Part shown: positions 997-54,207 of the stretch, one piece after another | How positions within the stretch are numbered: the first letter of the stretch is position 1 | Layout of the letters: every line of letters starts with the position of its first letter | Assembly: GCA_031763025.1 (NCBI GenBank) | Contig: JASSKH010000001.1 | Location: 16,159,142-16,223,141, forward strand | Direction: 5' to 3' | Source of the DNA: Macrocystis pyrifera | Lineage: Eukaryota; Sar; Phaeophyceae; Laminariales; Laminariaceae | DNA length: 64,000 nt | The notes under the pieces: model-generated | What the model saw: the letters and a program-made list of their open reading frames with translations, nothing else | What the model was told of the DNA's origin: nothing | The model's database searches: none | Program-made: the position numbers and the translations under genes

Positions 997-1008
997 AAAG
1001 GTTCTCAC

Positions 1009-1286: not shown

Positions 1287-2900
1287 CTGATCTTCGTGCA
1301 TTGAACACGACGGGGTGGCAAAAACGAAAAGACGTTACACACTCCATCTGTGAAAAGGACAATAACCAAAAACGGGTATACGCATAACGACAAGTCAAAA
1401 ACACACCCCACGAGCCACGCCATTGGCCAAAAAATAAATCCTGTATCCTACGGGATACCAAAGCAGTAGTCCTTTTTTTCGAAGGGTATATAGCCCATAC
1501 CAGATTGTATCATACCTGGTATATATATGTTATGTATGTACCTTTCCTATAGTACAGCTGTTGCTGTATACGAGTACCTTTCTTTGGCTCCACTGAAGCA
1601 GTCACGCAGTCACGATGTCACGATTTCTTTCTTTCGGTTGTTTCGCTTTCATTCAATAGAATACTCCTGTACTTACTTGGTGCTTGAACAGCAGTATTCA
1701 ACCATCGCCCTCTTCAACTATCGTATCTATTCCCGCACAAATAACAAACTGCAAACGCAACAACACACTACACCGATACAATAGTTGTCAGACGCCGAGC
1801 GACGCGTCCATCAGCACTGCAGCATGGGAATATCTTCGTGAGACTTTTCCAAAACCGTCATTTTCGTTGTGTGCGCCCGCCGGCTCTGGGGATAATCGGC
1901 TGAAACTTGTCCCACCCACGGGGTGGTGTGTGGTGTGTTGCGATGCTACAGCAGTTGGATGGGCTATGGATACGGTTTTTAATAAAATTATCGAATACGT
2001 CAGCTGTGAGTTCGACTGATTAAATAGGTTATACTCTACTTAGCAAGCTGGGTCATACGCCTGTTCTGTATTTCATTAATAGTAAAATGGGGCGAAGTTT
2101 AGATATTTTGAGCCTCCAAAAAAAAAAACCCACATACAATATAATCGGTGTTCTCATCTTCCGTGTTATATTCATAAGCGTTGCTGCTGCCGTATACTGC
2201 TGTAGGTAGAGCTTTGAGTAGGATGACTACTGCTGTTTGCCGTAGTATTAATAAAGGTCGCCAGCCGTAGGTATTGGTTGGCAAGGTATACTACGTACGT
2301 TCAGCAGCTGCAGCGGTGCCAACTAACAAACTACCAAGACTTATTTGGTACGGAGTGCGCATTTCCCCGTGATATCACTCGCGTAGACTCTAGAGGGCTC
2401 AGGTCCGGGTGGGATTAGGTATATCTAGGCGTTGGAATCATGGTGCCAACCGGGAGCTAGATGTTTAGAAGCAGAGTTCTTGTAGCAAGCGAGTGTTTTC
2501 GACTCGACCGTAGCCTGTTGGGTAGGGCTTGGTACTGGGCCAGTGTCCACTGGCAGTGCACTGGTTCTGGCAGTACATCTCTCCTGGCTGAGGGAGGTGC
2601 TAGGACTCTAGAATATTGGTAATTTACGTACGTCCCACTAAAACGCCTCACAGAATAACGGAAATACATCGAAACGTGCTCATGAGATAACAGTAAAGCA
2701 GCATTCCGAACACGCCTACACCATCATACCTTTTGTTCGCACTTTCGACTTTTCCTTTTGAGGCCAATCTACCACCCCTGACCCAAACATTAATTGCCTT
2801 TGCAATACCGCCCAAAATCAACGTATTGATTGGTGTATTCAGCTGTAGTGATCACAAATCGCTTCCACACGTGCCCCTGCAGGGCCCCTCACTAGCTGTC
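1287..2900. other. No gene recognised
   Basis: AT/GC-mixed sequence with the motifs TACCTGGTA (about 1517) and TACTGCTGTA (about 2190). It may hold upstream introns of the minus-strand methyltransferase gene. No convincing exon was seen. Confidence 0.4.
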
Positions 2901-29960: not shown

Positions 29961-30107
29961 TCACAAAGGCGTTATGCCTTGCCGTAGGATAACTTCTTGG
30001 ACCTCTTTGGCCTTGAGCGGCTTCTGCAGCACTGCCAGGGCGCCAGACTCGATACACTCCTCCCCTGCATAGTAGACAGCAGCAGCGGCGGGAAGCACAA
30101 TTAGACG
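29961..30107 (-). CDS. Fusion gene, terminal exon (end of receiver 2, stop)
   Basis: The pyrimidine-rich acceptor CCCTTTTCTTCCCTCGTCGACCAG leads to RLIVLPAA, then EECIESGALAVLQKPLKAKE and TGA at 29961-29963. The conserved Lys is in QKPLK. The switch Ser/Thr position after strand 4 appears to be Pro (IVLPA). Confidence 0.8.
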   Translation of the reverse strand, partial: RLIVLPAAAAVYYAGEECIESGALAVLQKPLKAKEVQEVILRQGITPL

Positions 30108-33100
30108 CTGGTCGACGAGGGAAGAAAAGGGTTCAAGTATTCTCACGATAGAAACGCAGGGCACGAATGATCGGGAGGGAGGGGGGAGGGAGAGTCTGCT
30201 GTGTGGCCCTGGGTCTGACTTACGAATATTGCGGGGGACGATAGTAAACAGGACCTACGACACAAACAATAACCAATATATTTCCTGTTTTTATGAACAA
30301 TATTTGGTCCTGTTTACTATGGCCCCCCGTAAGAGGAGGGAGAGAAATAAAAAGGACGAAAGAAAAGAAACGGGATGGGAGAAAAGAAAGACATGAAGAC
30401 GCGAACCTAACCCAACCCCAAAACGCCCCGAAGGCGTGAAAAGCAGGGTAGCATTTACTGCTATAAGGTATTGTAGGCAATCCCGCTGCTAGTGGGTCAT
30501 CTATAGTCGGTCGAAACAAGTACCTGGTAGCACAAACACGTCGGCTGTTGAGTTCTGACAAACCGAGGGGGCTGAATGATGCTCGGGTTAGCAAGGAGCT
30601 GCGTGATATACTCATGCATGCGTGAGTGCGTCGTCCACGTGTGCTCCACAAATACCTTCAAAAATATTATGCACTCAATATCTACTGTACATCTAGATCC
30701 TAATCCGCCGTTATGACAGGCGTGGCGGCATCTGTACAGGACAGATCCCACTTGGGAAACATGTTCGCGCAGGTGGTACAGGTCTCGCCCGAAAAAAAAT
30801 AGTCAGATCATACAAGAGCAGGCCTTTTCGATCACGCGGTGTGTGTTAGATTGTCCGTTCTACCCAGCTTCATCAATACACCCAGTGTCCGTCCTGATTC
30901 CTTGTCCTAGAGAGATGCTAATTCTGTGGTCACAGACTGTGAGACACAGGAAGACCAAAAAACGAAACACTCGCAAATTCATGGGTTAATTAAGCTCAAG
31001 TAAAGTGCCAGCGTACCGGGTACGAGAACACAGCAACTCAAGCAAGGCCAGGGAATAAGAACAAAAAGACAACAAAATGAAAACAAAAAAAAATCTGAAA
31101 TGAAACAGAAAGCAAATGACGCAGCAAGGTGATCAGAAAGGCTGCTATTTCGGGGGTCCATAGTAAATATGACCAAATATTGTCAGTAAAAATAGGTAAA
31201 TATATAGGTTTTTATGTATACCATAGGTCCTATTAACTATGTATCCCCGTAATAGTAATAGAAGGAAAACATACGTACTCAAGGAGATACAGATAGCTGC
31301 TGCACGGACGGAGCAACACGAAGGAGAGGAAAATACCGGGCTCAGTGGGAATCGATCACGATATCCAAGGTGTGAAATGTTACGGTATGATTCCAAAATC
31401 ATTTGTGTCATTTCATCTGTGAATTAGACCGATTCTAGTATCAACATTTGAAACTCAACTCTTCAAGTTGTGTGATAAAGTGGTATGTATGACGATATCG
31501 CGTGTTCTACATCCAGTCCTCGTGAAGGATAAACAGCGGTATATAGTGCCGGTTGCCTAAATAGTGCCGCTATATATGCGCCAGCTGACAATAGCGGCAC
31601 TATATATGTACAGCGGAAACCGGCACTAACTACTCCGCACATTAACACACTATTACGGGGGACCATAGTAAATAGGACCTAATATTGTTTGTAAAAATAG
31701 GTAAATATATAATTTTTTGTGTGTACCGGAGGTCCTATTAACTATGGTCTCCCGTCATACCACACTGGTGAATCACATCTGTCTGGACTAAGCGATTCCA
31801 CAGGCGCTATAGCGGGCAACCGGCACTACTCCACCGGCACTACGAGCAGTCGATGTCCGTAGTTGTCGTCAACTAACTGCTGTGTGCGCTCCTGGAAAGG
31901 CAGCGAGGGATGAAAAAAAAAAAAAAATTGATTCTTCTTCCGTAGACGACGCTTTTTCGGAGATTTTTTGGTCTCGGTCGCGCCGACGGCGCAGATCTCC
32001 GTCTTCAATTTTATTTTATTATTCAAACCCAAAACGGTCCTTGCCTCTTCGGAGAGAGTGGTTCTGACTACCAACCAGGTACATAGCAAGAAAAACACAA
32101 AACATGTTGCCTCAGGCGCCAGCTGAATTGTATGGACTGCCCGCCTGCCTGCCTGCCTGCCCGCCGCTGCTGAGGGTCCAGCACTCAAGACTCACCCAGT
32201 TTTTCTCGCTCCAGGCTGGACAGCATCACTACCGGTATGTGTTGCAGCTTGCGGTTACCCTTTTCAAGAGGAGACAAGAAAAAGCAAAATCACGGTGTCG
32301 AACGAGAGCAAAAAAAAAAAAAAGAGAAAGAGAGAAAGAGGGGGAGATGGAGACAGAGACAGACGGAGACGGAGACGGAGAGACAGAGAGAGAGTGAGAA
32401 AGTCAGCATTTGTGTCGTTAGCTTTGCCCTTTGGTTTTCGCGGTGGTATTGCTGGTGGTTTTTCGTAGGTTTTACCGTCGGCTTTACCGTGTTGGTATTA
32501 CCGTTAGACTCGCTATTGTTTTTACGTTGGTTTTACCAATACCCACTATCGCGCTGGAAAACATCAATTCCTGCATCAAATCCTACCCCCCCCGCTCTCG
32601 CCTCTCCCTCCCCTCCCCCTCCTTCCTTCCGTCCCTCTCTGCCCTTCTAGGTTTTTGTATCTCGCGTACTTGTTCTACCATCGGTCGTACCTCGACGCAC
32701 GCAACAGCTGGATGCCATTCTTGATCGGCATCAAACTGTCGAGGAGTCCTGCTTTCGGTTTTACCGCCGATTCTACCGTTGGTTTCACCGTTGTCTTTTC
32801 GTCGGCTTTACCGTTGATCTTAATACGGGGAGCCATAGTAAATAGGACAAAATATTGTTCGTAAAAATAGGGAAATATATAGGTTTGTGTGTGCACCTTA
32901 GGTCCTATTTACTGTGGTCCCCCGTATTACCTTTGGCCTGCAAGTCGGCCGCGCGCCTTCAAGGCGCACAATAGCTCAACGCCAACCATGATCGGCGCGA
33001 CAATGTCCAGCAGAGAGAAAGACCTTTCGTGTCCGCGGTTGATCCTACCGTTGGGTTTCCGTCGGTTTTACCGTTGGTTTATTCTACCGTTGGCCTATCG

Positions 33101-33264
33101 TCGGTCGCGCGCACCTTAACGGCCTTCAACAGCTCCATGCCATTCATAATCGGCATGATGATGTCCAGCAGGATCAGGTTCACGCGCTTGGGACTCCTCC
33201 TGAGGATGTCCAAAGCCGTCTGTCCATTCTCCGCGTGCACCGTGCTGTACCTAGAGAGTGAGGC

Positions 33265-33311
<47 letters not shown>

Positions 33312-36300: not shown

Positions 36301-39300
36301 GTACGTCTGGCCAGCGCCCGCCATACGTCACTGGCCATTGTGTGAACACGGTGACCCTAGGGTGGGTCGGAGTCCCTAACGAGCGCACTCCGTTCAAAAT
36401 TCAAGACGCAGTCATTGGTTTTGTCGATCGATATCTGTCGAGGACTCGGAATCTCGACGCTTCAAACCAAACATCCGCCCGAGTTTTTCAGAAGCCGATC
36501 TTGGCCCAATACCGCCCCTAAACTGTTTTTTTCGGGGCTTTCCAAAAGTTTGGAAGTTCTCGTATTAATAATCGTGCCTCATAGCAAGCTGCACCTGAAA
36601 AATCCTGACGGGTGTCTTTGGAATTCAGTTTATTTATTTACTTTCCGTTTCCATTGGCATAGCTCTCACAGCTGTTTTCCTAAATTCCGTTTCAGAAACA
36701 ATATACCTGGTATGCAAATAGGACTTTCAAAGAAAAAAACGATCTCCAACGCTTAGATGTTATTTTCAACCTCTTCGAATAAATCAGGTATATAGGCATC
36801 ACACGTATCCTACACGAACATCGGCTACCACACTTACGAACGGAGAACAAGCGTTATATAGCGCCGCACGAAAATAAAACAAAAAAACGACACCCATCAC
36901 CTTTCACTCACAGTAGAGGCCCCTTCCGAACAAAACCTTCTGTATCACTGTGAGGACATATTAGGACAGTTTAGACATTGATGTGAAGACCAACCTGTTC
37001 TTACTTTTACGACAAGAGCGGTAGGAAATAGACTCGTCGAACGTCTCCGCGCAGTGGGAGCCGGGATATGACATCAATAAAACGCACTGCAAAACTAACC
37101 CCACACCAATTCCAAGTAGCTTTACGCCCAAAAACGTGGGTGCAATAAAAAACCATGGGTTAAATAGGCCGACAGTGGCGAAGACAAGACTCTCCTCCCC
37201 GCCTCCCCCCCCCAAATAAAAAAACAAGCGGGGTGGACAAGCTTCACTCCGCACGAGGGGAATGATCGTATCACGTAGTGCGTACCAGGTATATGGTAAA
37301 GCACCCACGAGGCAGTTGTATAATGCAGTAGACACCTATGGTTGTCTGTGGAACTGGCAACACCAGAAAACAAAATCAATGCAGTCGACGCTCGCATCCC
37401 ATGGCAAAAAAAGTCCGCGTCACAAGCGGCTCTTAGTAGGATGCGGCTCGCCGTCCGTTTATGCGACTCGCCGAACACCTCACGGCGCATGGCGCCTGAT
37501 GCAGGAAAATGTCTGCCTGGTCGGTGAAAAACCCGACATGCTCCGTCCCGACATTTTAGGGATGCGAGGGTCTACGGTCGCACAGCTATGGCCATGCATG
37601 ATAATGAATTCACTCCCCCCCCCCCTCCCCGCCAAAAATATGACTCCCTGCTCACCCCAGCGCCCGAAGCTTGCGCATCGCCAGCTTGCACGAAATCGTG
37701 GAATCGTCCACCACTAAAATTGTAAGCTGTTCGACAAGCACAGGCAATTTTGGGAGTGAAAGCAAGGAAGGACACGATAACCGAGTTGACGAGCAAACTC
37801 ATGGAACACATGACAGGCAACTCACGCAGCACGTGTAAGGGTATGTGAACGCTTCGCGGAGGACAACATCGGCCTAGGCTTACGGTAGGTCCACTGGTAT
37901 GACACTGATGTACGGGTTCGCACAGGAACCTCGAGGTACATGAACCGACAAATATTAGCGAAAAAAACGGCATATGCACGAAGAGGCCAAAAGTGAAAGC
38001 AAGGAAACGTGAACGGAGTACGTGAGTTCTTGGGAGGGATTACTGGTATTTTCATTGAGGGCATATCGTACGTGTGCATACATATATACGTGCAGGAGAA
38101 CAGCAATGAAGGGGGGGATTTAGAGATAACACAAATAGAGACGCACAGGAAATTCGAGATACATGAGTGCACCCCCTCGTCCACGAAGAAAACAAAACAA
38201 AAACAAAACGAAGCTGTGTCAGGTCACGAGTACTACACGCCATTGCTATGTACACGTACCGCTTATTTCCGCAGAACGACTGCGGACCGAAATCGACCTT
38301 ACAAAACCACTCTCTCTTAAGCCCTGCGCGGTGGTCCTACCCAAGGGAAACCCATTCAACAATTTCTGAGTTTCTTCTATTAATAGTCCAGCTTCGAGTG
38401 TTTTGTCATTGAATCGCGAGTGTGTTGGTGAAAATACATCTGGGAAGGCTCACAGGGAGCCGTTTTTTTTCTCTCGACTTGCCCCAGATTCGACAAAAAC
38501 GTAACAACCCTAACCCCAACCCCAAACCTCCAACATGCCAATCGCACGGGAAAACCCTATAATCCCGATCGCCTGGGATTTTTCTCGAGAGAAACACATA
38601 GCTGAAGCGAGGAATTTGTGTGCACCACGTATACATGAACTTTCGTTTTTCAAGACTCGGCCTAGATTCGACAAAAAGGTAAAAACCCAGTCACCCAAAC
38701 CCAAGAACCCAAAACGCCGATCGCTTAGGGAAACCCTATAAACCCCGACCGACTGGGAAATTTCTCGGAATGCACAATAGTTCCAAATCAGCGTACAGAA
38801 AGAAAAATACGTTTTGTCGTCAACCAACCGAATTCACTTTTCCATAGTCATGGCTCTACCGACGCAAGGGGTCTATATACTTGTGCAAGGCAAGGAGGAT
38901 GAAAACATCATTTTCGAGTACCTCTTGCTTGATGTGCATAGCTGCGCGTGTAGAGCAGAGGCACACGAGCAGACCGCACGACCCTGCCCGCTGCCTAATG
39001 ACATGCCTAGACTAGGCCTACTGTTTTGTATACATACAGCTGAAACGAGGGATTTTTGGGGAGAATCAACCACTGTTTCCAAGCTGAGCCGAGCGGTGCA
39101 CAGTACTCGTACTGGTCCACGGGGGGGGGGGGGGGGACATGTAATATGCAAGCTTCCTAGAAAAAAAAAAAAAAAAAACTGATGCTACGTACGTACGAAC
39201 AGTGCGTACGAAAAAAAAAGAAACGCTTCAAAAACAACAAATCGACAAATACCGGTAAATACCAGTAAACCCTTCTAGTACCGCAGTCCCGTTTAGGGGA

Positions 39301-39398
39301 CAAACTACTTAAAATTAGACTGGTTTGTCTCCCAAACCTGACTGCACTGCTAAAAGGGTACAAGTACATTATTGAAAATTGAAAAAAAAACAGCGGGG

Positions 39399-39432
<34 letters not shown>

Positions 39433-45037: not shown

Positions 45038-45094
<57 letters not shown>

Positions 45095-48000
45095 TTTGTT
45101 GCTTGCCTTAGTCATTTGACCATTGACCACGCATCCCTTTCGAGACGGAGCACCGTTCCTACTCCTAATAGAGACACCTCCAACAATTGGGCGCTCATTA
45201 CGTTGTTTCCATATACTACATAGAAACTTTTTGACAATCTTATCCCCTTCCTGTTTGGCCTCCTGTGGCCACCATCTATCTCCTAGGATAGCGATCGTTT
45301 TCTCGCTGCTATTCATTGTATCAAACTCCTCCATGTCACATTCGTCTATTTCCCTCATCTCTTCTAACACATCCCGTTCCTCCTTGTATATTTCACATTC
45401 TCCTACTATGTGACTTCTACTCTCTATTGCTTTGCCACACGGGCACATCTGTGCGTCTACTTCCTCCTCCTCCCGGCTACTGGTGTACCTCTTTCTTCTT
45501 TCTGGCAGGTCCAGGTCCCCTACACGAAAGCGCAGTTTCAGCGTTTTCGCGAAGTCCATTGGGCCATGCAAATACGTTTTCATTCCTATTCCTTCCCTCA
45601 ATCCCCCGTATGTCTCCAAGTGTTTTTCCGATTCCACCTTGTTTCTCAGCGCTAGCCTTTCCCTTCTTTCTATCCTTTCTTCTACTTCTGCCTTGTACCT
45701 CTCAAACTTCCCGGCGGACAACATCTCTACTTGGTTTCCCCTTAGATCCTTCCATACTTTCTCAACTACGCCATCCCACCTTATTCCAGCTCGCCCTTTT
45801 GTTCCTTTCTCCCATACAGCTCTATCAACTATGGCTATTAATAGCAACCTCTTTTTTGGCATGTTCCTTACTTTATATTGCCAGTTCAACTTTCTCATGT
45901 CTCTATTTGTCTTGAGTGGGCGCATTCCCAGTTCTGCTCTTAATACTGTATTACTAGTCGTACTTGAGCATCTTAGGATTTTTTTAGCTGCTGTCATTTG
46001 TACTGTTTCCAACTGCTTTACGAGTTTCGCGTTCCCTTCCCATACTTCTCCTGCGTATTCTAGCTTTGGTACTATCACATTCATCAAGATACATCTCTTA
46101 ATCCCAGTGTCAAGGTTCGGGTTTGTTAGGATCGCATCCATCTTGCCTACTTGTGCCTTTTACCCTTTCCTATTACTTTTGATATACGATATGTGTATCC
46201 CAAGAGCAGTCTTTTGAGATCTCTACGCCAAGGTATGTATACTGGTCTACGATCGGCAATTCATCTTCTCCCCACTTCCAACTGAAATTTACCGGGTTTA
46301 CCTTATCTTCGTTGCAAACAACTACTGCGCATTTCTTGACGTTCGCCGTCACCCTCCATTTCCTGGTGTATTCTAGCGCCTTCCCTACTTGTTTCTGCAA
46401 TCCTTCGGGTGTTTCTGATATCCCCACGAAGTCATCCGCAAACATCAATCCCGACACCGTATCTTCCCCTACCGTGACTCCCTGCCTTGCTCCCTCGACT
46501 GCTACTATCAGGTCGTTAATATATATCTTGAATAAGTTAGGTGACAACGTACATCCCTGTGCGACTCCTTGCAAAATATCAACATACTTCGATATTTCCC
46601 CGTCCAGCATCACAGCACTTCTCGCACATTCCGTCATATTTTTCATCATTCTCCACATCTTTCCTCTGATTCCTATTTCCCACAGTTTTTTCCACAATCC
46701 ATTTCTCCTTACTGTGTCGTAGGCTTTCTGCACATCTAGAAAGAAACAGTACGTTGTTTGTCCCGCGTCTTTCCTACCTTGAATAATCTTACCTAAGGTG
46801 TACACATGGTCTACGCAGCTACGGTTTGGCCTAAACCCTGCTTGCCCTTCGCTTATTTTGTCTTCCTTCTCCATCATCGTTCCCATTATATCGTTCAAAA
46901 TCTTACAAAATGTTTTGCCTACTGTGCTTAGTAGCGTTATCCCTCTATAGTTCCCCGGGTCAGCCTTATCTCCTTTCTTGAATAAATTTACTACTACTCC
47001 TTCTCTCCACCTCCTAGGTGCGTACTCGTTTTTCCATATCCAGTTATACAACATAACCATCATGGTAAGCATTCCTTCTCCCCCGTACTTCATAAACTCA
47101 TTCACTATTTGGTCTGCCCCTGCTGCCTTTCTGTTCTTAAGTTTAGCTACACACTTCTTTACTTCTTGTGCAGGGGGGGGGGGGACTCATGCCATTCATG
47201 GCCGTAGTCGTATGTATGGCCATGTAGACCCACGCATCCCTACAATCCCGGGACGGAGCTAGTCGGGTTTTCACCGACCAGGCCGACATTGCTTTCACCA
47301 AGCGCGAAGCGCCGGTAGGTGTTGAGCAAGGGGGGAGAGTAAAAGGGGAGGAAGGGGGAGGGAGTGATCGTTTTGGCACGTTGTGCTACTTTCGCAATCG
47401 CAACAAGCGAGAGGGAGAGGGGGGGGGGGGCGGGGAGGGGGGTGTACTCGGGGGGGGGAAATCGTTGGCCGCGTTTCCATCAGTTTTGCAATTCCAACAA
47501 GACAGCTTAGTGCACACAAAAAAAAAAAAAAAGTACGGCAGAGAATATCCGCCGATAAAAAGTTGAGGTCCTCTACGACAAAGGGATAAGAGGACGTTCG
47601 TTTCGTGTACATTTTTTTTAATTTTTTTTTTTTTTTGTACGTGCTCTTCTCCTTTGCTGAATGTTCTGCTCCGCACGGAAGCAACGCGGTCGACGAATAC
47701 TTGGGCCCGCCCCCCCGGGTATCTTCCTACGAAAGGTAACGACGGACTTTTTACAATGCAGATACGTGACTACACTCATACAATTCATACAACTCACACA
47801 CTTCACGGTCTTTCTTTATACAACTGATACATATCATACCCGTTACAACCCGTTGTCCGCCCCGGTGGTATACTACGGGGGACCATAGTAAATAGGACCA
47901 AATAGTGTTAGTAAAAATAGGTAAATGTATAGGTTTTTGTGTGTACCGTAGGTCCTATTTACTACGGCCCCCCGGTGGTCTAGTGGTTAACTTCGCATAC

Positions 48001-51000
48001 TACTAGCGTTGGTGTCTGGGGTTCGATTCTCCGTATGGAGTTTTTACATCTCAAAATGACACCAGCTACTGTCCAGAGCGCCTATTATGGCGCGGGTAGG
48101 CACAAGTAGACGCGAGTCGACGAGGAAGAAAAAGTGCGGGACCCCCATCGCGATGAAAATGCAAGGCATGGGCCGTAGCGGGGGGAGGGGAGACAAATGC
48201 CTATTGTGTGATTCCCGATCTTAATTACGACTGGGGAGGAGCTCAAGAAGAAAGGGCGAAAATAATTGATCGGACGAGAACACAAAACAAAACAAAAAGC
48301 ACCTCATACGACTCCTGCTACACTTCATACGACCCAAACACTCCACACAGCTCGTACACGTCAAAATAATTCATACTCTTCGTACATCTCACGCTATTCA
48401 TGCATCCCATGTAGCACAACTCGCATACTTCATACCATACGATTCCCGACGTGGGAGACATTTCGTACATTTCCATACAACTCATGCAAGGAAACTACAA
48501 AAACCTCGCCGAAAGCACGACCCTCTTCCTCTTCCTCTGCGACGCCGCGCCTGTGTCCCTCCGTGTCTCAGTCGTCAGCGACGATGCCGCAGACTCCACA
48601 CACTTCTACATCCAAGCACCCATGCAACTCATACGACGCATCCGCACTTCCGCAGCTCAGACAGGCAGATCATGATCTATCTATCTATCTACTGATAGAT
48701 CCCCTGGTTCGTCACCCACTGTTATGACAGGCATGGTACAGATCCAACCCTGAGACTGGTATTATATATACTTCGTGGAAATTATTTGGCTCCCACCCAG
48801 CAACATGAGGTACATCACACAGATCAGATCAAGAATTTATCCGCCCTGAATAGTCTAGATCCTCGAAGTGAGAACGATCTGTAGACGATCAGTCCTACAG
48901 TAGATGTGCACAGTTCATGCAGCTCATACAATCAATACACTTTATACTACTCCTGGACTTCTTACAACTCAAATCAACTCATACAATCCTACCATTTCTA
49001 CACTTCTCGCGACTGAAATCAACGCAATGCACCTCATACGACGCACACAGCTTCACCCAACTCAAGGCGTGCGTCCACAAGCTCATAATATATACAAGGC
49101 GCTTCGCTCAGGAAGGAAAAGTACATTAAATTATGCGAAGCGGGCAGAGGTCCATGATTGAATATAGTTTTTTTTCATGATTGATTGTAGTTGCAAACTG
49201 GCGACTTGATAATGCCAAGAGCCCCGCCGCCATGCTTTAGGAGAAAACAGCTCGGATGCCACATACGCTTCGGGCCGCGGGTGGTTTTCCGCTACGCTCG
49301 CTCACATGTCGTACGTACGTACATACCCCAGGTAGGGTACTTATTTTCTTCTTTCGACATGCTCTATGTCTGTACTCGTAAGCACGAAAGATTAAGCTCA
49401 GCACGGCACAGCAGCACCGCATATACAATGAAAATGAAACCGAACAATTCGGAAAGAAAAAAAATCCCCGTCCCCTCTCGTGTAATAATTTCCTGCCTGA
49501 TGGGAACACCTTACACCGGTCAAAAAGAAAAGAAGAAAAAAATCAAACAGCAGAGAATCTCTCTCAGCCTCGTACGCCGCCCGCCCCTCTCGCGACCATT
49601 TCGCCACCGATTCGGTCCGGGCAAAGCTTCCCTCACTCTCTGCCACAGTGAGCCCCGTCGCCCGCCTCGCGTGAAGCCCGGTGCTCACCGTGGCCGTCGT
49701 TCGCCAGCTCGACAATGTTGGTGCTCAGACTGCGTACCTCTCTCTTTGAGCTTAAGCCCGGTCGCAAAAAAAAGCACCGCTTGAATCTTACCTTGCGATC
49801 CCGAACGACCCTTATAAACTCGTAGATACTCTATCATGAACCACAAAATGAGGCCAGACAGAGCCCATTCATACTTCCCTCGTATCTCGAGGCACACGCG
49901 AAGCCTAGCCACGAAAACGGCGACCGCGCTCCTTGCAACCCCATCTTTACCCGCCACCATCCGCCGACACCCGCGACGGCGCCGGGTTTGCCCGCGACGC
50001 CGTGCTCCGAGTACACGAACGCACACGAAACGAAAGAAGAAAAAAGGAAAGTAAGGACTGAAAGTGCCAAGAGAATGGAGAAAAACAAAGAACCGCTGGA
50101 AAGGTCCGGCAAGTAATAAAAGGAGGCGATGCTCAAGTGGGAGCTCTGAGAGGCCAGGGATGTACCAACCGAGCACGCTCAGAGAGTGAGATATCTATGA
50201 GTAGTTCTATGTATATATGTATATATAGATTTTTTTTTTTCAACTACAAAAACTCACTGGGAGCACGGCCTTCCCCCTCTTCCAAGACGGCACACCGCTT
50301 TTGTCCTTCCCCCCCTCGCTTGTCAGCGATGACAGCCTCGAAGAAACCGACTTCTCAGATGCGGCATCGCTAGCAATCGAGGCGGTGCTGGGGCCACTCC
50401 CTCGCATCGGCACTTGCTGCACCGCCACAGAGCCCCCAAAAGAACCCGGCAAGGACGTGAGACTCGGGCACCGGGGTGTGCAGGAAGCTGTGGTACCGGT
50501 GCTGGGGTTGGGGAATGCGACAGAGCTGGCGTTGCCGCCGACTAGCGATGTTGTTTCAACCGCCGCTGTTCCTCGGGGCACCTGTCCACAGACCTGCTGC
50601 ACGACCCTGAGGACCTCATCGATCTTCATGGGCTTGCGGAGGACGACCTCGGCGCCTTCTTGCATGCACACCACCTCTGAAAATGGTATATGTATATATG
50701 CGGCATCGCGGAAGACATAGGAGAAAAGGAGGCGGGGGGGAGGGGTACTAGATATCATGCATGGCCGTAGTCGCATGACCATAGACCCTCGCATCTCTAC
50801 AATGCCGGGACGGAGCACGTCTGGTTTTCACCGACCAGGCAGACATTGCTTGCAATAAGGGAGGGGGGGGCGGGGGGGGAGGTACTCATTTGTTGCTTGC
50901 CTGAGTCATTTGACCATTGACCACGCATCCCTTTCGAGACGGAGGGAGGGGGGGGGGGGGGGGGGGGGGGGGGATACTCGTTTTTTTCTCGCCTTTTAGT

Positions 51001-52071
51001 AATTTGTCATCTGACCATTGACCACGCACGCCTTTCGAGACGGAGCATCGTTCCTACTTCTAATAGAGACACCTCCAGCATTTGGGCGCTCATTGCGTTG
51101 TTTCCGTATATTACATAAAGGGACTTTTTGCTTACGATGGCATGTCCTCTTTCTGTTTCACCGTCTTCGGCCACTATCTATCCATCGCCTAGGGGGGGGG
51201 GGGGGGGTGTACTCGATAGGAGAGATGTACTCGATCTCATGCATGGCCGTAGTCGTACGACCATAGACCCTCGCATCCCTACAATGCCGGGACGGAGCAT
51301 GTCGGGTTTTCACCGACCAGGCAAACATTGCTTGCGCCAAGCGCGAAGCGCCGTGAGGTGTCCGGCGAGTCGCATGAAGGGTGAGCTGCATCCTACTAAG
51401 AACCGCTCGTGAGGCGGGCTTGCATATGGGGGGGGCGCGAAAAGGAAGAAGCAAGGAATCTCGAAGCAAGAAACATTCAAGGAAGAAATGCATACAGAAG
51501 GATACGACGGATGCATACGTAGTACCATATACTCTTTCGTAGTTTGGGTTTTGGTTTTTCACACACAGACCACTCAAAACACTCGCAAACAGAAAGAGGA
51601 GGGAGGGGGGTAGGGGACGGAGGGGGGGGGGGGAAGAGGGCGGTGGAGAGGGAGATTAGAGAGGAGAGAGAACAACAGCATGCAGATAAATCCACATACG
51701 TACACAAAAAGAGAAAAAAAAACTGTAGCAGCTCATATTGCAGGAGCACCAACACCAACAACAACAGCAACAAACATATTATTACGGGGGACCATAGAAA
51801 AAAAGGATCAAATACTGTCAGTAAAAATAGGGAAATATATAGGTTTGTGTGAGTACCGTAGGTCCTATCTACTATGGCCCCCCGCAATAACAATAAGACA
51901 ACCACATCACAACGCCACCTCCACCAACAACAACAACAGGCACCATTGACAACGTTAACCTGCTGCTCGCTCACCAAGGTTGCGGTCCTGTAGACCCGAC
52001 AGCATGGCCACGGGAATGTTGTGCAGCAGCGGGTTTTTCTTTATCTCACACAGCACCTGGAAGGCGGGGGG

Positions 52072-52111
<40 letters not shown>

Positions 52112-54207
52112 TCATTATCATGCATGGCCGCAGTCGTATGGGCATAGACCTTCGCATCCCTACAATGTCGGGACGGAGCACGTGGGCCTTTCACCGACCA
52201 GGCAAACAATGCTTGCACCAAAACCGTCAAGCGCCGTGAGGTGTTTCGGGCGAGCCATATAAAGGGTGAGCTGCATCCTACTGACAGAAAAGGGTCGTTA
52301 GGCGGACTTTTCTTACAGAGGATGACAGTGTACAGAGTTTAGTTGATTTGCTTTCTGGTGTGGCTGGCCACGTCAGGGGGTCTACTCATGTCGCTGGGGA
52401 TGACGGGGGACCATATTAACAGTGATCAGGACCCATCATACACACAAAAAACTACATATTCCAGTATTTATAGCAAGCATATTTCGTCCTGACTATCAAG
52501 TTCTCCTGTAATAGGCCGTCGCATCTCCACAATGCCGAGACGGAGCGGGGGGAAATACGATTTCAATAGATGCTATCACGGGGGCCCATAGTTAATAGGA
52601 CCTATGGTTTACATAAAAACCTATATATTTACCTATTTTTACTAACAAAATTTGGTCCCGTTAACTATGGACCCCCGTATTAGCAGACCGCGGTTCGACT
52701 GCTTGAGTGACCGCTCCTGTACACTTAAAACAAGTATAATATGGCCTCTCCAACAAGGTTAGCGGTCAACAGTTTATGAGACCGCGGTTTTACCGCCTGA
52801 CTGACCGCTCCTGTGCACATAAGCAAGTATAGAATGGCCTCTCCAACAAGGTTAGCGGTCAATACGCTAGGAGGCTACGGTTTGACGGACTTGATCCTTT
52901 GATCGACCTCCCCTCTGAAGTACAACCAATTAAGCGAGACCTCCCCAAGATTAGCACACAGGCTAATGGGATACCATCCTTGCCGCTGGATTTTGTCCCG
53001 GGAAGTTGCTAATCGCACTATTACGGGGGGGTCCATAGTTAATAGAACCTATGGTATACATAAAAAAAAAACTAAATATTTACCTTTTTTACCAACAATA
53101 TTTGGTCCTATTTACTATGGCCCCCCGTACTACACCGAGGTGACCTATTACGGGGAACCATATTTAACAGGACCTACGATACACACAAAAACCTGTATAT
53201 TACGTGTTATTAACAACACTATTTGGTCCTATTTACTATGGTCCCCCGTAATAATGCTAGTAACGCCCCCCCCCCAGAGTAAACGTCCCGGGGCCCTATT
53301 TTTATTCTCAGTGAAAACGAGCAAAATCCGAAGTAAACGCCCCCTGTTAAAAAAAGAAGCGAAAAAACGCCTCGGACACGTAGAAAACGCCCCCCCCCCC
53401 CCCTCCAATTTTTTGGGGGTAAAAGCCGTGGGGCGAAGCGTGCAAGCCATTTGAATGAGAGGAATGAAGGTGTTTGTTTCCAGAGCAGGCCAAAGGGGGT
53501 GTTTTGCACGGGAATGTCGACATATGGGCAGGTAGGTACGAGTACATGTGTTGTGTAACAGCAGAACAGGAATGATCAGCCGAGGGCAGAAAATAAATAA
53601 ATAAATAAAAACAACACCTTCCGCCTTTGGAACAAAATCACTACCTAATAGACACTCGAACGAGTACTGTAAGAACGCTAGCAAACACCTCACCCGGAAT
53701 AAACGCCCCCCTGTTTCAACAAAAAATAGAAGAACGCCTCGGCCACATAGTGCACACCCCGGGTCGCCCTTTCACGATAACACAATCGAAACGCCCCGGG
53801 AGGCGTTTACTAGCATAAATTACGGCACCCACCCAAATTGCTGATTTATTATGGGGGACCATAGTAAATACCTGGTAGGACCAAATCTTGTTAGTAAAAG
53901 TATGTAATATATATTGGTTTTTAGGGTGTACCGTAGGTCCTATTTACTGTGGTTTCCCCGTAATAGTATAATATACTATATTGAAGTTCGTTTCTCTCTA
54001 TTGCCAAAACTAGTCAACCCACACTATTAATAGCTCAAGCCATTAATTCATTCGTTCCATCCGCCCCATTTCCTACAGCGTTTCTACCAGGTATACTCGT
54101 ACCTCCAACCCGTCGATTCCGGGCATGATGACGTCCAGAAGAACGAGGCTGAACTCCAGCGGCCTCGCCTTCAGCGCCTCCAGTCCTAACCGGCCGTCCA
54201 CGGCAAC
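29961..54207 (-). CDS. Receiver - peroxiredoxin-like - receiver fusion protein (3' ten exons)
   Basis: Ten exons join in frame to 615 residues plus stop: 54103-54207, 51975-52056, 50258-50676, 44745-44980, 44034-44203, 42708-42843, 39610-39928, 37656-37726, 33088-33250 and 29961-30107. Receiver 1 has phosphoacceptor LLDVIMPG, switch Ser in AMLSG and Lys in LRKPMK. A Ser/Thr-rich linker follows, then an AhpC/TSA-like thioredoxin fold (GEVAPNFELPD, LLAFFPVAL, FPLLSD, YRWV), a Gly-rich linker, and receiver 2 (ILVVDDS, LLDIIMP, LQKPLK) at the C-terminus. Receiver domains accept phosphate from histidine kinases or HPt proteins; peroxiredoxins reduce peroxides. The peroxidatic Thr and Cys are replaced here, so a sensing or scaffolding role is more likely than catalysis (inference). 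The start exon, with the VDD part of receiver 1, was not found and lies above 54207. Introns total over 20 kb and are packed with MITEs and poly(C) retroelements. Confidence 0.85.
30228..30333. mobile_element. MITE-A copy 3
   Basis: Ends GCGGGGGACGATAGTAAAC and GTTTACTATGGCCCCCCG form inverted termini. Confidence 0.8.
30849..31139. repeat. Dispersed direct repeat, copy 1 (partner at 42140-42431)
   Basis: The two share CTACCCAGCTTCATCA, TCCTAGAGAGAT, GCCAGCGTACCGGGTACGAG and GATCAGAAAGG in the same order and spacing, about 290 bases. Both lie in introns of the fusion gene. No coding content was seen. Confidence 0.75.
31148..31252. mobile_element. MITE-A copy 4
   Basis: CGGGGGTCCATAGTAAATA and TATTAACTATGTATCCCCG are inverted ends, flanked by TTT and TAATA. 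Confidence 0.8.
31544..31832. mobile_element. TIR element with AGTGCCGGTTGCC ends, interrupted by MITE-A
   Basis: Left end TAGTGCCGGTTGCC and right end GGGCAACCGGCACTA are inverted. The element also carries subterminal TAGTGCCGCTATATA repeats. MITE-A copy 5 sits inside it. Confidence 0.65.
31653..31757. mobile_element. MITE-A copy 5 (nested)
   Basis: TTACGGGGGACCATAGTAAA and CTATTAACTATGGTCTCCCG lie inside the AGTGCCGGT element, so MITE-A inserted later. Confidence 0.8.
32460..33087 (-). pseudogene. Tandem decayed copies of the receiver-2 exon with minisatellite spacers
   Basis: Minus-strand relics at 32935-32995 (LLDIVAPIMVGVELL) and 32675-32750 (SLMPIKNGIQLLR) match LLDIIMPIMNGMELL of the intact exon at 33088-33250. 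Between them are repeats of TACCGTTGGTTTTACCGTCG type (32460-32540, 32755-32820, 33040-33087). Only the 3' half of the exon is recognisable in each relic, and neither has a clear acceptor. MITE-A copy 6 interrupts the array. Confidence 0.75.
32822..32928. mobile_element. MITE-A copy 6
   Basis: TACGGGGAGCCATAGTAAAT and ATTTACTGTGGTCCCCCGTA are inverted ends. Confidence 0.8.
33088..33250 (-). CDS. Fusion gene, exon with phosphoacceptor of receiver 2
   Basis: Acceptor CTCTCTAG completes a Gly codon from the preceding exon. The exon encodes YSTVHAENG, then NLILLDIIMPIMNGMELL, and ends RATDDRPT before donor GTAGAA. An alternative donor, GTGCGC, lies 27 bases earlier and is also in phase 0. Confidence 0.85.
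33267..33310 (-). repeat. Poly(C) tract (minus strand), 15 bases from a 3' splice site
   Basis: A run of 44 G on the plus strand reads as C in the fusion-gene transcript and ends just upstream of acceptor CTCTCTAG. Confidence 0.9.
34490..34587. mobile_element. MITE-A copy 7, left end lost
   Basis: AAATAGGACCTATGG, then TGGTCCTATCTACCACGG and CCCCC. A TACCAGGTA word interrupts the usual CCTATATATTT. Confidence 0.75.
34600..35780. other. Intron of the fusion gene; no exon recognised
   Basis: AGATAGAT-type simple sequence (34630-34680), then AT-rich sequence with GAACGTTACTC/GAACATTACTC repeats (34990-35070). Unclassified repeats. Confidence 0.35.
35780..36002 (-). mobile_element. tRNA-derived SINE, copy 3 (head missing)
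   Basis: Shares the body blocks CTTTCCAGC, CTGGACAAGCCGTGGTCACA and GCGCATAGGGTTCAGCATTC, and ends before the tRNA-like head. It carries an extra TTAATA at a TA in CTCGTA|GGAG relative to the other copies. Confidence 0.78.
37225..37626 (+). mobile_element. Family PC retroelement copy, plus orientation
   Basis: Contains CACCCACGAGGCAGTTG, GGTCGGTGAAAAACCCGAC, TTAGGGATGCGAGGGTCTAC and GGCCATGCATGATAATG. It ends in a plus-strand C run (about 37612-37626). It is the only long copy opposite to the host gene. Confidence 0.78.
37656..37726 (-). CDS. Fusion gene, exon starting receiver 2 (VVDD)
   Basis: Acceptor GTCGAACAG, then LTILVVDDSTISCKLAMRKL, with donor GTGAGCAG in phase 2. It contains the paired acidic residues that bind Mg2+ in receiver domains. 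Confidence 0.88.
38485..38785. repeat. Diverged tandem duplication, unit about 175 bp
   Basis: Both units contain AGATTCGACAAAAA, a run of AACCC(C/T)AA words, GATCGC, GGGAAAACCCTATAA or GGGAAACCCTATAA, and TTTCTCG, in order. The first unit includes AACCCTAACCCC, a telomere-like word. Confidence 0.65.
39270..39360. mobile_element. Small TIR element (CAGTCCCGTTT family), copy 2
   Basis: ACCCTTCTAGTACCGCAG and CTGCACTGCTAAAAGGGT are inverted ends. Confidence 0.7.
39401..39560 (-). mobile_element. Family PC retroelement copy
   Basis: A C tail (plus G run 39401-39431) is followed by CATGCATGGCCGTAGTCG, CATCCCTACAATGCCGG and TTTTCACCGACCAGGC. The copy is cut off after about 130 bases and is followed by another G run. 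Confidence 0.78.
39565..39585 (-). repeat. Poly(C) tract (minus strand) 25 bases after a 5' splice site
   Basis: A run of 21 G on the plus strand lies just inside the intron downstream of the exon at 39610-39928. Confidence 0.85.
39610..39928 (-). CDS. Fusion gene, Gly-rich linker exon
   Basis: Acceptor GACGAAG completes the Glu codon of the previous exon. It begins ELLQVLQCSDAALK (the end of the peroxiredoxin-like fold or a short helix). The Gly/Ser-rich linker follows, and it ends SRGVRK in phase 0 before GTGGGG. Length and composition fit a flexible tether to receiver 2. Confidence 0.82.
39976..40016 (-). mobile_element. Family PC copy truncated to about 30 bases plus tail
   Basis: A G run is followed by TACTCATTATCATGCATGGCCG-type sequence and then unrelated sequence. 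It lies 47 bases upstream of the acceptor for the linker exon. Confidence 0.7.
40228..40333. mobile_element. MITE-A copy 8
   Basis: GGCATAGTTAATAGGACC and GGTCCTATTTACAATGGCC are inverted, with TTA and TAA outside. The G run at the left end is expanded. Confidence 0.8.
40721..40826. mobile_element. MITE-A copy 9
   Basis: TTACGGGGGATCATAGTTAA and TTAACTATGGACCACCGCAA are inverted ends. Confidence 0.8.
41121..41241. mobile_element. Small TIR element (CAGTCCCGTTT family), copy 3
   Basis: ACCCTTTTAAGG and CAAAACGGGACTGCAG then AAAAGGG mark the ends. Another arm pair follows to about 41360. Confidence 0.6.
41725..42050 (-). mobile_element. Family PC retroelement copy
   Basis: A G run (41725-41734), then ATCATGCATGGCCATTGTCG, CATCCCTACAATGCCGG, GAAGCGCCGTCAGG and AGACAGCGCTGGGTT. 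About 320 bases. Confidence 0.8.
42140..42431. repeat. Dispersed direct repeat, copy 2
   Basis: Partner of 30849-31139, in the same orientation, with shared blocks throughout. Confidence 0.75.
42708..42843 (-). CDS. Fusion gene, third peroxiredoxin-like exon
   Basis: Acceptor GCGCCAAG, then (D)VASTGQRGSHVGIVV and GKCLYRWVATGENG, ending DLA before donor GTGAGTACT (phase 2). This is the strand pair that in AhpC/TSA proteins carries the FVID-x-G-x-I-x-Y-x-W/V segment. No resolving-cysteine motif (VCP) is present. Confidence 0.85.
42875..43365 (-). mobile_element. Two family PC copies in tandem
   Basis: A short copy (42883-42935) and a longer one (42945-43365) both show the CATGCATGGCC terminus after G-rich runs. 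The longer copy includes GACAGCAATGGGTTCACC and ends near TCATCCCCTCTCGTGCGG. The first tail lies about 37 bases upstream of the acceptor for exon 42708-42843. Confidence 0.72.
43855..43910 (-). mobile_element. Possible short family PC fragment
   Basis: ATATCATGCATGACGATAG then GTATTACCAAAGA resembles the family terminus, but no G run adjoins it. Confidence 0.4.
44034..44203 (-). CDS. Fusion gene, second peroxiredoxin-like exon
   Basis: Acceptor CGCGCAG gives AGCAACC, completing a Lys codon. The exon reads THTDVVAIGKDPPFAMGF and GLDFPLLSDCQLS. This matches the V-V-x-I-S-x-D-x-P-F and (F)PLLSD region that is highly typical of AhpC/TSA and BCP-type peroxiredoxins. Donor GTGAGTGACG, phase 1. 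Confidence 0.88.
44745..44980 (-). CDS. Fusion gene, first peroxiredoxin-like exon (active-site Cys missing)
   Basis: Acceptor GTCGCGTCGCAG gives GEVAPNFELPDKHLRQFRL, then NILLAFFPVALVESAATG, a Gly-rich stretch and EILNALRDNLAAI; donor GTGAGATG in phase 2. In active peroxiredoxins the block is F-x-P-x(3)-T-x(2)-C. Here it aligns as P-VAL-V-ES-A, so both Thr and peroxidatic Cys are replaced and a Gly-rich insertion follows. Flanking blocks stay in the same frame, so one slip cannot explain the loss. Confidence 0.88.
45038..45092 (-). repeat. 55-base poly(C) tail of the non-LTR retrotransposon
   Basis: The plus-strand G run directly adjoins the 3' end of the element (AGCAACAAAAA on the minus strand). 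It ends 56 bases before the first peroxiredoxin-like exon. Confidence 0.9.
45100..46141 (-). pseudogene. Retrotransposon ORF, C-terminal region with Cys/His motif
   Basis: About 345 residues are open from MDAILTNPN onwards, with NVIVPKLEYAGEVW (the region after the RT thumb in Jockey/I-type elements), then CPCGKAIESRSHIVGEC. The latter is a C-x-C-x(8)-H-x(4)-C finger common near the C-terminus of such elements. It is separated from the RT frame by a shift near 46145-46175. An open frame continues through the poly(C) tail as poly-Pro into the host exon, which is an artefact. Confidence 0.82.
46173..47171 (-). pseudogene. Retrotransposon reverse transcriptase, truncated and frameshifted
   Basis: It opens at the truncation with KNRKAAGADQIVNEF, followed by RGITLLSTVGK, FRPNRSCVDHV, FLDVQKAYDTV, VAQGCTLSPNLF and the catalytic LMFADDFVG, then VKKCAVVV and YTYLGVEISKD. 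These are RT blocks 1-7 of non-LTR elements in order. The frame ends at 46173 just after YLGV, while homologous sequence continues in another frame, indicating at least one indel. Confidence 0.9.
47172..47335 (-). mobile_element. Family PC retroelement copy abutting the LINE
   Basis: A G run (47172-47183), then ATGCCATTCATGGCCGTAGT, GCATCCCTACAATCCCGGGA, TTTTCACCGACCAGGC and GCGAAGCGCCG. Its tail marks the truncated 5' boundary of the LINE. Confidence 0.78.
47756..47850. repeat. CATAC/ACTCATAC low-complexity repeat
   Basis: ACTCATACAATTCATACAAC and CACACTTCAC-type words recur. The same composition continues at 48300-49135. Confidence 0.6.
47872..47975. mobile_element. MITE-A copy 10
   Basis: TACGGGGGACCATAGTAAAT and GTCCTATTTACTACGGCC are inverted. 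It abuts a tRNA-like sequence. Confidence 0.85.
47971..48040 (+). other. tRNA-like sequence (pseudo-tRNA or SINE head)
   Basis: TGGTCTAGTGGTTAAC fits an A-box and D-arm, and GGTTCGATTCTCC fits a B-box and T-loop, with correct spacing. The acceptor stem cannot pair, because a MITE-A end occupies the 5' side, and the anticodon stem is poor. A working tRNA is unlikely. Confidence 0.45.
48300..49135. repeat. Irregular (A)CTCATAC-type repeat region
   Basis: CTCATAC, TTCATAC and ACTCAAATC words recur roughly every 10-20 bases across most of the segment, interrupted at 48660-48900 by an AGATC-rich repeat. Open frames within have biased composition and no domain. Confidence 0.55.
48665..48905. repeat. 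AGATC-rich dispersed repeat
   Basis: CTGATAGATC, GTTATGACAGGC, CATCACACAGATCAGATC, CGCCCTGAATAGTCTAGATC and GTAGACGATCAG. Similar ordered words occur at 54690-54950, and a partial set at 30660-30780. Probably a TIR element. Confidence 0.5.
49398..50183 (-). repeat. Inverted-duplicate segment A (partner 61402-62112)
   Basis: Minus-strand words CTGAGCGTGCTCGGTTGG, ACATCCCTGGC, CGCCTCCTT, TATTACTTGCCGG, GGCTCTGTCTGGCCTC, AAGATTCAAGCGGTGC and CAGTCTGAGCACCAAC occur in the same order on the plus strand at 61402-62112. It lies in the intron between 50258 and 44980. It contains a 163-codon open frame on the minus strand with no recognised domain. Confidence 0.75.
50258..50676 (-). CDS. Fusion gene, exon with end of receiver 1 and Ser/Thr-rich linker
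   Basis: Acceptor TTTTCAG gives AG completing a Glu codon. The exon reads VVCMQEGAEVVLRKPMKIDE (helix 4, strand 5 and the conserved Lys) and then VVQQVCGQ. About 100 residues rich in Ser, Thr, Gly and Pro follow. It ends WKRGKAVLP before donor GTGAGTTT, phase 0. GKAVLP leads straight into GEVAPNF of the peroxiredoxin-like exon, as in normal AhpC/TSA proteins. Confidence 0.87.
50734..50855 (-). mobile_element. Family PC retroelement copy
   Basis: A broken G run, then TAGATATCATGCATGGCCG, CTACAATGCCGGGACGG and TTTTCACCGACCAGGC. The tail lies 57 bases upstream of the acceptor of exon 50258-50676. Confidence 0.75.
50860..50946 (-). mobile_element. LINE 3' fragment 1
   Basis: A G run, then TACTCATTTGTTGCTTGCC, GACCATTGACCACGCATCCC and TTTCGAGACGGAG. 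Confidence 0.8.
50974..51192 (-). mobile_element. LINE 3' fragment 2, about 215 bp
   Basis: After a G run of about 33 (50941-50973) follow CATCTGACCATTGACCACGC, GAGACACCTCCAGCATTTGG and CATTGCGTTGTTTCC. It is collinear with 45110-45330 of the longer element, through GGCCACTATCTATCCATCGCC. Confidence 0.85.
51193..51430 (-). mobile_element. Family PC retroelement copy
   Basis: A G run (51193-51207), ATCTCATGCATGGCCGTAG, CATCCCTACAATGCCGG, CAAGCGCGAAGCGCC and GGTGAGCTGCATCCTAC. Confidence 0.82.
51781..51889. mobile_element. MITE-A copy 11
   Basis: TTACGGGGGACCATAG and CTATGGCCCCCCGCAA are inverted ends. The neighbouring AAAAAAGG is a decayed AAATAGG. Confidence 0.82.
51975..52056 (-). CDS. Fusion gene, middle exon of receiver 1
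   Basis: Acceptor CGCCTTCCAG, then VLCEIKKNPLLHNIPVAMLS and GLQDRNL, with donor GTGAGCGAG in phase 1. PVAMLSG carries the switch Ser after strand 4. Confidence 0.9.
52074..52400 (-). mobile_element. Family PC retroelement copy at a splice acceptor
   Basis: A 36-base G run (52074-52109) ends 16 bases from the acceptor AG of exon 51975-52056. Beyond it are CATTATCATGCATGGCCG, CATCCCTACAATGTCGG and CCTTTCACCGACCAGGC, through GGTGAGCTGCATCCTAC. The C tail therefore occupies the polypyrimidine-tract position. Confidence 0.85.
52406..52515. mobile_element. MITE-A variant
   Basis: ACGGGGGACCATATTAA at the left, and internal ATCAGGACCCATCATACACA with TTTCGTCCTGACTATCA at the right. This links MITE-A to the element at 19511-19588. 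Confidence 0.55.
52575..52680. mobile_element. MITE-A copy 12
   Basis: TCACGGGGGCCCATAGTTAA and GTTAACTATGGACCCCCGTA are inverted ends. Confidence 0.85.
52681..52960. repeat. Diverged tandem repeat, unit about 105 bp
   Basis: GACCGCGGTT(C/T)(G/T)AC then GACCGCTCCTGT, AAGTATA, ATGGCCTCTCCAACAAGGTT and AGCGGTCAA occur twice (from about 52685 and 52790). A third, weaker unit follows. Confidence 0.75.
53021..53129. mobile_element. MITE-A copy 13
   Basis: TTACGGGGGGGTCCATAGTT and TTTACTATGGCCCCCCGTA are inverted ends. Confidence 0.85.
53148..53252. mobile_element. MITE-A copy 14
   Basis: TTACGGGGAACCATATTTAA and ATTTACTATGGTCCCCCGTA are inverted. Only about 20 bases separate it from copy 13. 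Confidence 0.85.
53255..53820. mobile_element. TIR element with ATGCTAGTAA(A)CGCC ends
   Basis: The left ATGCTAGTAACGCCCCC is the inverse of the right GGAGGCGTTTACTAGCAT. Inside, GTAAACGCCCCCTGTT then AACGCCTCGGACACGTAG recurs as AATAAACGCCCCCCTGTT then AACGCCTCGGCCACATAG. No coding capacity was seen. Confidence 0.65.
53848..53963. mobile_element. MITE-A copy 15, with a CCTGGTA insertion
   Basis: TTATGGGGGACCATAGTAAA and TATTTACTGTGGTTTCCCC are inverted ends. Seven bases, CCTGGTA, interrupt the family word AAATA|GGACC. Confidence 0.85.
54103..54207 (-). CDS. Fusion gene, first recognised exon (phosphoacceptor of receiver 1)
   Basis: Acceptor CTGTCGAAG, then VAVDGRLGLEALKARPLEFS and LVLLDVIMPGIDGLE, with donor GTACGAGT in phase 0. 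The 35 residues run from the second receiver strand through the phosphoacceptor Asp. The preceding exon, which must carry the VDD motif, was searched for by eye up to 64 kb and not found. Confidence 0.87.

Follow-up and report, generated by a model that had tools for sequence, protein, structure and literature searches.

Does a single gene of the kelp Macrocystis pyrifera place a peroxiredoxin-like fold between two receiver domains, and what would such a protein do? The question is raised by a locus in a 64,000-nt stretch of genomic DNA (C189:16159142-16223141), referred to here as the window, in which the initial annotation had joined ten exons of 1848 bases. We positioned the exons manually from the sequence and verified the junctions and phases by script. 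The resulting minus-strand gene model (54207-29961) comprised 11 exons and 1842 nt, encoding 613 aa plus a stop codon. All 10 introns had GT-AG ends and the phases were consistent throughout, so the phase agreement claimed earlier stood and the exon and base counts were revised. The spliced protein reads receiver 1, linker, AhpC/TSA-like domain, linker and receiver 2, and the exons are as follows.

54103-54207, minus strand: E1, middle of receiver 1 with the phospho-acceptor Asp (LLDVIMPG), from the splice model
51975-52056, minus strand: E2, receiver 1 with the switch Ser (VAMLSG), from the splice model and a match to Undaria
50258-50676, minus strand: E3, end of receiver 1 with the conserved Lys (LRKPMK), donor GTGAGT
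44745-44980, minus strand: E4, N-terminal part of the peroxiredoxin-like domain (GEVAPNF..FFPVALVESAATGGGGG..), with motif loss and a Gly-rich insert
44034-44203, minus strand: E5, middle of the peroxiredoxin-like domain (VVAIGKDPPF..FPLLSD)
42708-42843, minus strand: E6, C-terminal strands of the peroxiredoxin-like domain (GIVVLNGKGKCLYRWV)
39610-39928, minus strand: E7, peroxiredoxin-like domain, final helix (LLQVLQ), followed by a Gly-rich linker that leads to receiver 2
37656-37726, minus strand: E8, start of receiver 2 with the acidic pair (LTILVVDDS), from the splice model and a match to Undaria
33115-33250, minus strand: E9, middle of receiver 2 with the phospho-acceptor Asp (LLDIIMP), also found by the receiver-family search
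32196-32259, minus strand: E10, receiver 2 (IPVVMLSS), from the splice model and a match to Undaria
29961-30064, minus strand: E11, end of receiver 2 (LQKPLK) and stop codon, from the splice model and a match to Undaria

The 3' part of E3 encodes a low-complexity linker of ~107 aa whose last residues are GKAVLP. The junction GKAVLP|GEVAPNF described in the annotation is present, formed by splicing of the E3 donor to E4, and the spliced frame contains no stop or frame break between 50258 and 44980. Pfam profiles placed PF00072 on two stretches of the 613 aa (120.6 bits, cut-off 30.2) and PF00578 once above its cut-off in the same spliced model, in agreement with the proposed arrangement of two receivers around an AhpC/TSA-like fold. 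We regard this predicted receiver-redoxin-receiver gene model as confirmed in substance, with corrections to the earlier exon count.

We then assessed the exons of the central domain. Donors read GTGAG in 7 of the 10 introns, including those following E3, E4, E5 and E6. The minus strand has 27 copies of this pentamer in 24,247 nt, and the probability that three given points each have one no more than 13 nt away is ~3e-6, an optimistic value because the exon ends were set knowing the donors. Codon usage learned from the receivers ranked E4, E5 and E6 in the top 1.8, 4.7 and 1.3% of stop-free stretches, and third-position GC alone ranked them in the top 5.4, 9.5 and 5.9%. The codon-usage background consisted of 3000 stop-free stretches per exon from 104 kb, with the window exons of the model and the retroelement described below masked and strongly repetitive stretches dropped. 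GC contents at codon positions 1, 2 and 3 were 0.69, 0.46 and 0.70 in the redoxin-coding part and 0.64, 0.32 and 0.77 in the receivers; the base pattern of the redoxin-coding part is coding-like. Both linkers scored below zero on receiver codon usage, so most of E7 lacks codon-usage support, and this low-complexity exon with its weaker donor (GTGGGG) is the least certain of the model. E4 to E7 together measure 861 nt, equal to 287 codons, and the cassette they form begins and ends in phase 0; E4 has no in-frame Met codon.

The closest annotated proteins were Undaria pinnatifida Undpi1 8819 (P0001, 594 aa) and an Ectocarpus sp. 6 protein (P0002, 404 aa). Like the kelp model, both contain two receivers in the same order, and the Undaria protein also has its N-terminal exons in common with the kelp gene. 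On its receivers and 5' exons we assign the Undaria protein as an ortholog, and the Ectocarpus protein is likely one as well. E1 was 89% identical to the Undaria protein across 37 aa; receiver 1 was 88% identical to its Undaria and 58% to its Ectocarpus counterpart, receiver 2 was 79% and 56% identical, respectively, and the two kelp receivers were 42% identical to each other. The receivers are shared by kelp, Undaria and Ectocarpus, and the two-receiver protein would therefore predate the split of these algae. An alignment of the six receiver sequences showed that both receivers retain the acidic pair, the phospho-acceptor Asp, the Ser and the Lys. The pair is Asp-Asp except for Glu-Asp in Ectocarpus receiver 2, and that of kelp receiver 1 is encoded by a 5' exon beyond the window. 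We take the acidic pair, Asp, Ser/Thr and Lys to be the phosphorylation-site residues of receivers. No HisKA or HATPase kinase domain was detected in the spliced 613 aa, in which Pfam gave only PF00072 and PF00578 at E<=1, as the annotation had stated, and no kinase family was found in the Undaria protein. PleD was the best NCBIfam match for receiver 2 and for the Undaria and Ectocarpus proteins, far under its cut-off.

The window lacks the first strand of receiver 1. Using the Undaria protein as query in ~40 kb of upstream sequence, we located the 5' exons that the annotation had left to be found; they number two and lie upstream, outside the window.

84892-84103 (window numbering continued upstream): 790-nt exon encoding KKRMSILVVDDSQITLQLARRALSQVNFHVE, donor GTGAGA
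85293-85231 (window numbering continued upstream): first exon, encoding MGNSAKALRGYEEEANIAIMR, matched by the Undaria protein

The 790-nt exon, which includes MSILVVDDSQ, was 74% identical to the Undaria protein over 50 aa (E 1e-16). These exons lie ~20 kb past the window end and ~30 kb upstream of E1, the intron to E1 measures 29.9 kb, and the whole gene extends over ~55 kb. Within the 790-nt exon the frame shifts by one where the sequence is rich in CAG/CAA, at about 84500-84300, which is either an assembly error in the repeat or a lesion.

Searches of the whole kelp genome showed how the locus relates to other receiver genes. With 74 of 3984 candidates scored, a genome-wide search with the Undaria protein gave at least 30 matches, 8 of them at this locus, and no second copy of the gene was among the matches listed; the others were one weak receiver on C223 and mainly a Gln- and His-rich stretch. 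Among the matches listed, the receiver-family search pointed to three places: E9, C200 and C223. On C200, 4918948-4922103 (L032 949-4104) holds an uninterrupted frame of 1051 aa with PAS_2, GAF, PHY, HisKA, HATPase and receiver domains, by its domain content a predicted hybrid kinase of phytochrome type in a genome rich in introns. At ~4.15 Mb on C223 (L033 2490-5441, plus strand) there is another split receiver (VLVVDDST.., LVLMDLRMPIMDG.., FIQKPAS..). The intron after E9 carries, on the minus strand, two degenerate repeats of that exon's second half, at 33013-32957 and 32746-32696, with protein identities of 68% over 19 aa and 65% over 17 aa; a DNA search did not reveal them. The receiver exon E9 was probably duplicated in tandem and then decayed. 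Elsewhere in the window, a weak Methyltransf_4 exon (998-1447, minus strand; PF02390, 27 bits, cut-off 24) is a probable part of a neighbouring gene, and neither an Rfam match nor a tRNA was found.

We further examined the central domain of 196 aa. PF00578 scored 27.0 bits in the whole protein, a margin of one bit over the Pfam cut-off of 26, and when the domain was scored by itself the value was 30.2 bits. In a genome-wide exon-by-exon search at E<=0.001, none of the 10 PF00578 matches listed fell in the window, a result that speaks against the model. Its best solved relative was 2ywn (E 1.6e-7), followed by 2cx3 (5e-4) and Rv2238c/1xxu (0.003), and the two 2ywn-matching stretches taken singly gave E 0.046 and 0.081. 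SAKe entries, which we take to be designed proteins, matched with E values of 0.003 or higher, surely a chance effect. The best NCBIfam match was thioredoxin-dependent thiol peroxidase, at 30.7 bits against a cut-off of 140. With the PrxQ/BCP- and AhpE-type peroxiredoxins (PF00578; 2ywn, 2cx3, 1xxu) the kelp domain has in common the motif order APNF, FFP, FPLLSD, GK..Y+W, and fold motifs are retained between its first strand and last helix. Unlike these enzymes, which contain T-x-x-C, it lacks this motif, carries a 22-residue insert and is tethered between receivers. The 2ywn alignment breaks at the peroxidatic site (FFPVALVE versus FYPAAFTQ), stopping at residue 44 and restarting at 47, and the kelp domain has 22 residues, SAATGGGGGAQGRGRVWATGKA, where 2ywn has two. 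In this region (FFPVALVESAATGGGGG) Val replaces the Thr of 2ywn, the loop is devoid of Cys and the insert is Gly-rich; the peroxidatic Cys would presumably be expected in P-x-x-x-T-x-x-C, that is, in the loop filled by the insert. With less certainty, the alignment also places Val at what we take to be the family position of the conserved active-site Arg, and an Arg is present a few residues earlier. The domain retains three Cys (113, 158 and 188 in domain numbering), presumably none of them at a known catalytic position. Because the peroxidatic motif is lost, no peroxidase activity is expected, and the simplest reading of the domain is a putative pseudoenzyme with its fold retained. The coupling of phosphorelay to redox state suggested by the annotation thus fails as far as peroxidase chemistry is concerned, since the peroxidatic motif is gone. 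Its alternative, a dead redoxin fold used as a binding module, agrees with the motif loss in its first part; the binding role is one that we infer.

Relatives of the domain and of the fusion were sought widely. Protein region 200-400 of the 613 aa, searched against a set of 5.8 billion proteins, had no relative among 6256 candidates at E<=0.001, and the 196-aa domain had none among 434 candidates at E<=0.01; these searches covered lengths of ~337-1072 and ~108-343 aa, respectively, and need shared 5-residue words. The whole protein gave at least 77 matches among 7992 scored. The best two named were brown algal, 70 of the 75 beyond these top two list the kinase ATPase family PF02518, and PF00578 was in no row among the matches listed. 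Single-protein scans, which reach close relatives only, returned 6 pattern matches in viral contigs and 66 in prokaryote genomes, none of them a relative. Within the kelp genome the redoxin domain had 6 matches, namely 3 of its own exons and 3 at E 0.45 to 3.9, and with non-self matches of this quality only, no recent peroxiredoxin copy is seen in the genome. The annotation knew of no characterised protein with this domain order, and among the papers listed, judged by titles and abstract openings, no receiver-peroxiredoxin fusion was found. As far as searched, the families are known and their receiver-redoxin-receiver combination is new.

The intron preceding the cassette contains a mobile element.

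44981-50257, minus strand: intron 3, holding a LINE-type retroelement
47186-45100, minus strand: LINE-type retroelement, with an RVT_1 open reading frame at 47186-46176 (PF00078, 109 bits)

A second open frame (46159-44744), which has no Pfam match, passes through a C-tract that ends 58 nt before E4 and reaches into E4, by chance in our reading; the open frame upstream of E4 thus leads into the C-tract and the retroelement, and the latter holds Met codons. We considered whether this neighbour had moved the cassette in and dropped the idea, as the domain is too distant from all peroxiredoxins compared to be a recent arrival. Upstream of 6 of the 10 acceptors (E2, E4, E5, E6, E7 and E9) a run of at least 8 C was observed within 100 nt on the coding strand, compared with 0.88 expected by circular shift (P ~0.002). 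The runs at E2, E4, E6 and E7 resemble repeat-element tails by motifs devised in this analysis, and repeat elements may have a preference for pyrimidine tracts or be their source.

Several known systems resemble parts of the predicted protein. Tandem receivers in one chain with no kinase occur in FrzZ-type regulators. PleD-type tandem-receiver regulators likewise have two receivers per chain and no kinase, but PleD has a GGDEF output, whereas the kelp protein has a redoxin fold between its receivers and no GGDEF. We know of no other receiver-redoxin-receiver protein. Contacts between the two kinds of fold are described for separate proteins. According to one report, thioredoxin binds OmpR, PhoP, NarL and SsrB in Salmonella, and its contacts with OmpR involve the linker and output domain, not the receiver (PMC9584953). 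According to another, the CikA pseudo-receiver is an interaction partner of fold-switched KaiB, whose fold is thioredoxin-like (PMC6378743). At the fission yeast response regulator Mcs4, phosphorelay and redox proteins meet and oxidised, redox-sensitive GAPDH docks, as stated in a third (PMC3644883). The thioredoxin-response regulator and KaiB-CikA pairs are separate proteins, whereas the kelp model has one chain, in which docking is what we infer.

Our main reading, to which we give a probability of roughly 45%, is that the gene encodes a brown-algal tandem-receiver regulator with a dead peroxiredoxin-fold docking module in a four-exon cassette of phase 0/0. The receivers would be phosphorylated by histidine phosphotransfer proteins, themselves supplied by hybrid kinases encoded elsewhere in the genome, where at least one candidate, the phytochrome-HisKA-HATPase-receiver frame, is present. 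They would stand last in a phosphorelay or at one of its branch points. The redoxin fold would perform no peroxide chemistry and would offer a docking surface that holds one or both receivers or a partner, phosphorylation would alter binding by the protein, and inclusion or skipping of the cassette would switch between the docked form and a plain receiver-linker-receiver form. We estimate a chance of about two in three that the fusion protein is produced in quantity, and rate the docking mechanism lower. Because thioredoxin-superfamily folds dock on such proteins, a tethered inactive redoxin acting as a clamp or scaffold would be the likeliest role, and redox reporting a less likely one. In the specific form of an internal docking clamp, where the dead redoxin would bind the flanking receivers, phosphorylation would release it and cassette splicing would pick the clamped or free state, we consider the proposal rather unlikely.

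The alternatives turn on whether the cassette is used and whether the gene is intact. As annotated, the Undaria and Ectocarpus proteins have a low-complexity linker between their receivers and no AhpC/TSA domain, unlike the kelp model, and since E4-E7 has phase 0 at both ends, splicing of E3 to E8 would yield just this receiver-linker-receiver product. In these relatives the cassette may be lacking, skipped, or missed as small fast-evolving exons among long introns; the last is weakened because no annotated protein of about 108-1072 aa matched the redoxin domain. The same observations, the domain missing from annotated relatives and the phase kept on skipping, together with a stop ~75 nt past the E7 donor, favour a main product of receiver-linker-receiver type, with E4-E7 a rarely used cassette, a relic, or a separate nested gene whose first exon has escaped notice, and with the fusion minor or never made. 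We hold this to be somewhat unlikely. A relic is at odds with the intact frames of E4-E6 and their strong donors, kept despite great divergence from any peroxiredoxin. Also against this alternative, E4 is devoid of an in-frame Met, and the E3/E4 and E7/E8 phases fit the receivers. The comparison itself is open to question, because the Undaria model has an odd stretch directly preceding receiver 2 that finds no convincing counterpart in 37600-50700 and may be faulty there. The Undaria and Ectocarpus linkers gave no more than chance matches in that interval (tblastn, low-complexity filter on). With the filter off, the Thr-rich Undaria linker matched intron 5 at 43853-43716 (E 6e-6), as low complexity or a shared stretch; we take it for low complexity. 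This unfiltered match and the OmpR contacts outside the receiver led us to lower the weight on docking and to raise that on a plain receiver-linker-receiver product.

If instead the domain kept a redox role, it would pair with an active peroxiredoxin or use Cys 113, 158 and 188 and so report peroxide to the receivers. The retained fold motifs, the three Cys left and the presence in the genome of exons that we label PrxQ-like and 2-Cys-like, Cys included, are consistent with such a role, but a Gly-rich insert in place of the peroxidatic motif and remaining Cys that lie at no position known to be catalytic make it quite improbable. Decay of the gene, in which the shift in the 5' repeat would terminate the frame and the full protein would not be made, would account for the one-base frame change within the CAG/CAA repeat. 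We judge it highly improbable: all 11 downstream exons are open, the receivers are 79-88% identical to those of Undaria with every active-site residue present, and the change sits in a simple repeat, in an assembly made from long reads.

The docking-module reading concerns a gene seen once in the kelp genome. If made as one protein, its product would unite in one chain folds that are known to make contact as separate proteins, and the locus suggests that in intron-rich kelp genomes gene models may omit whole domains.
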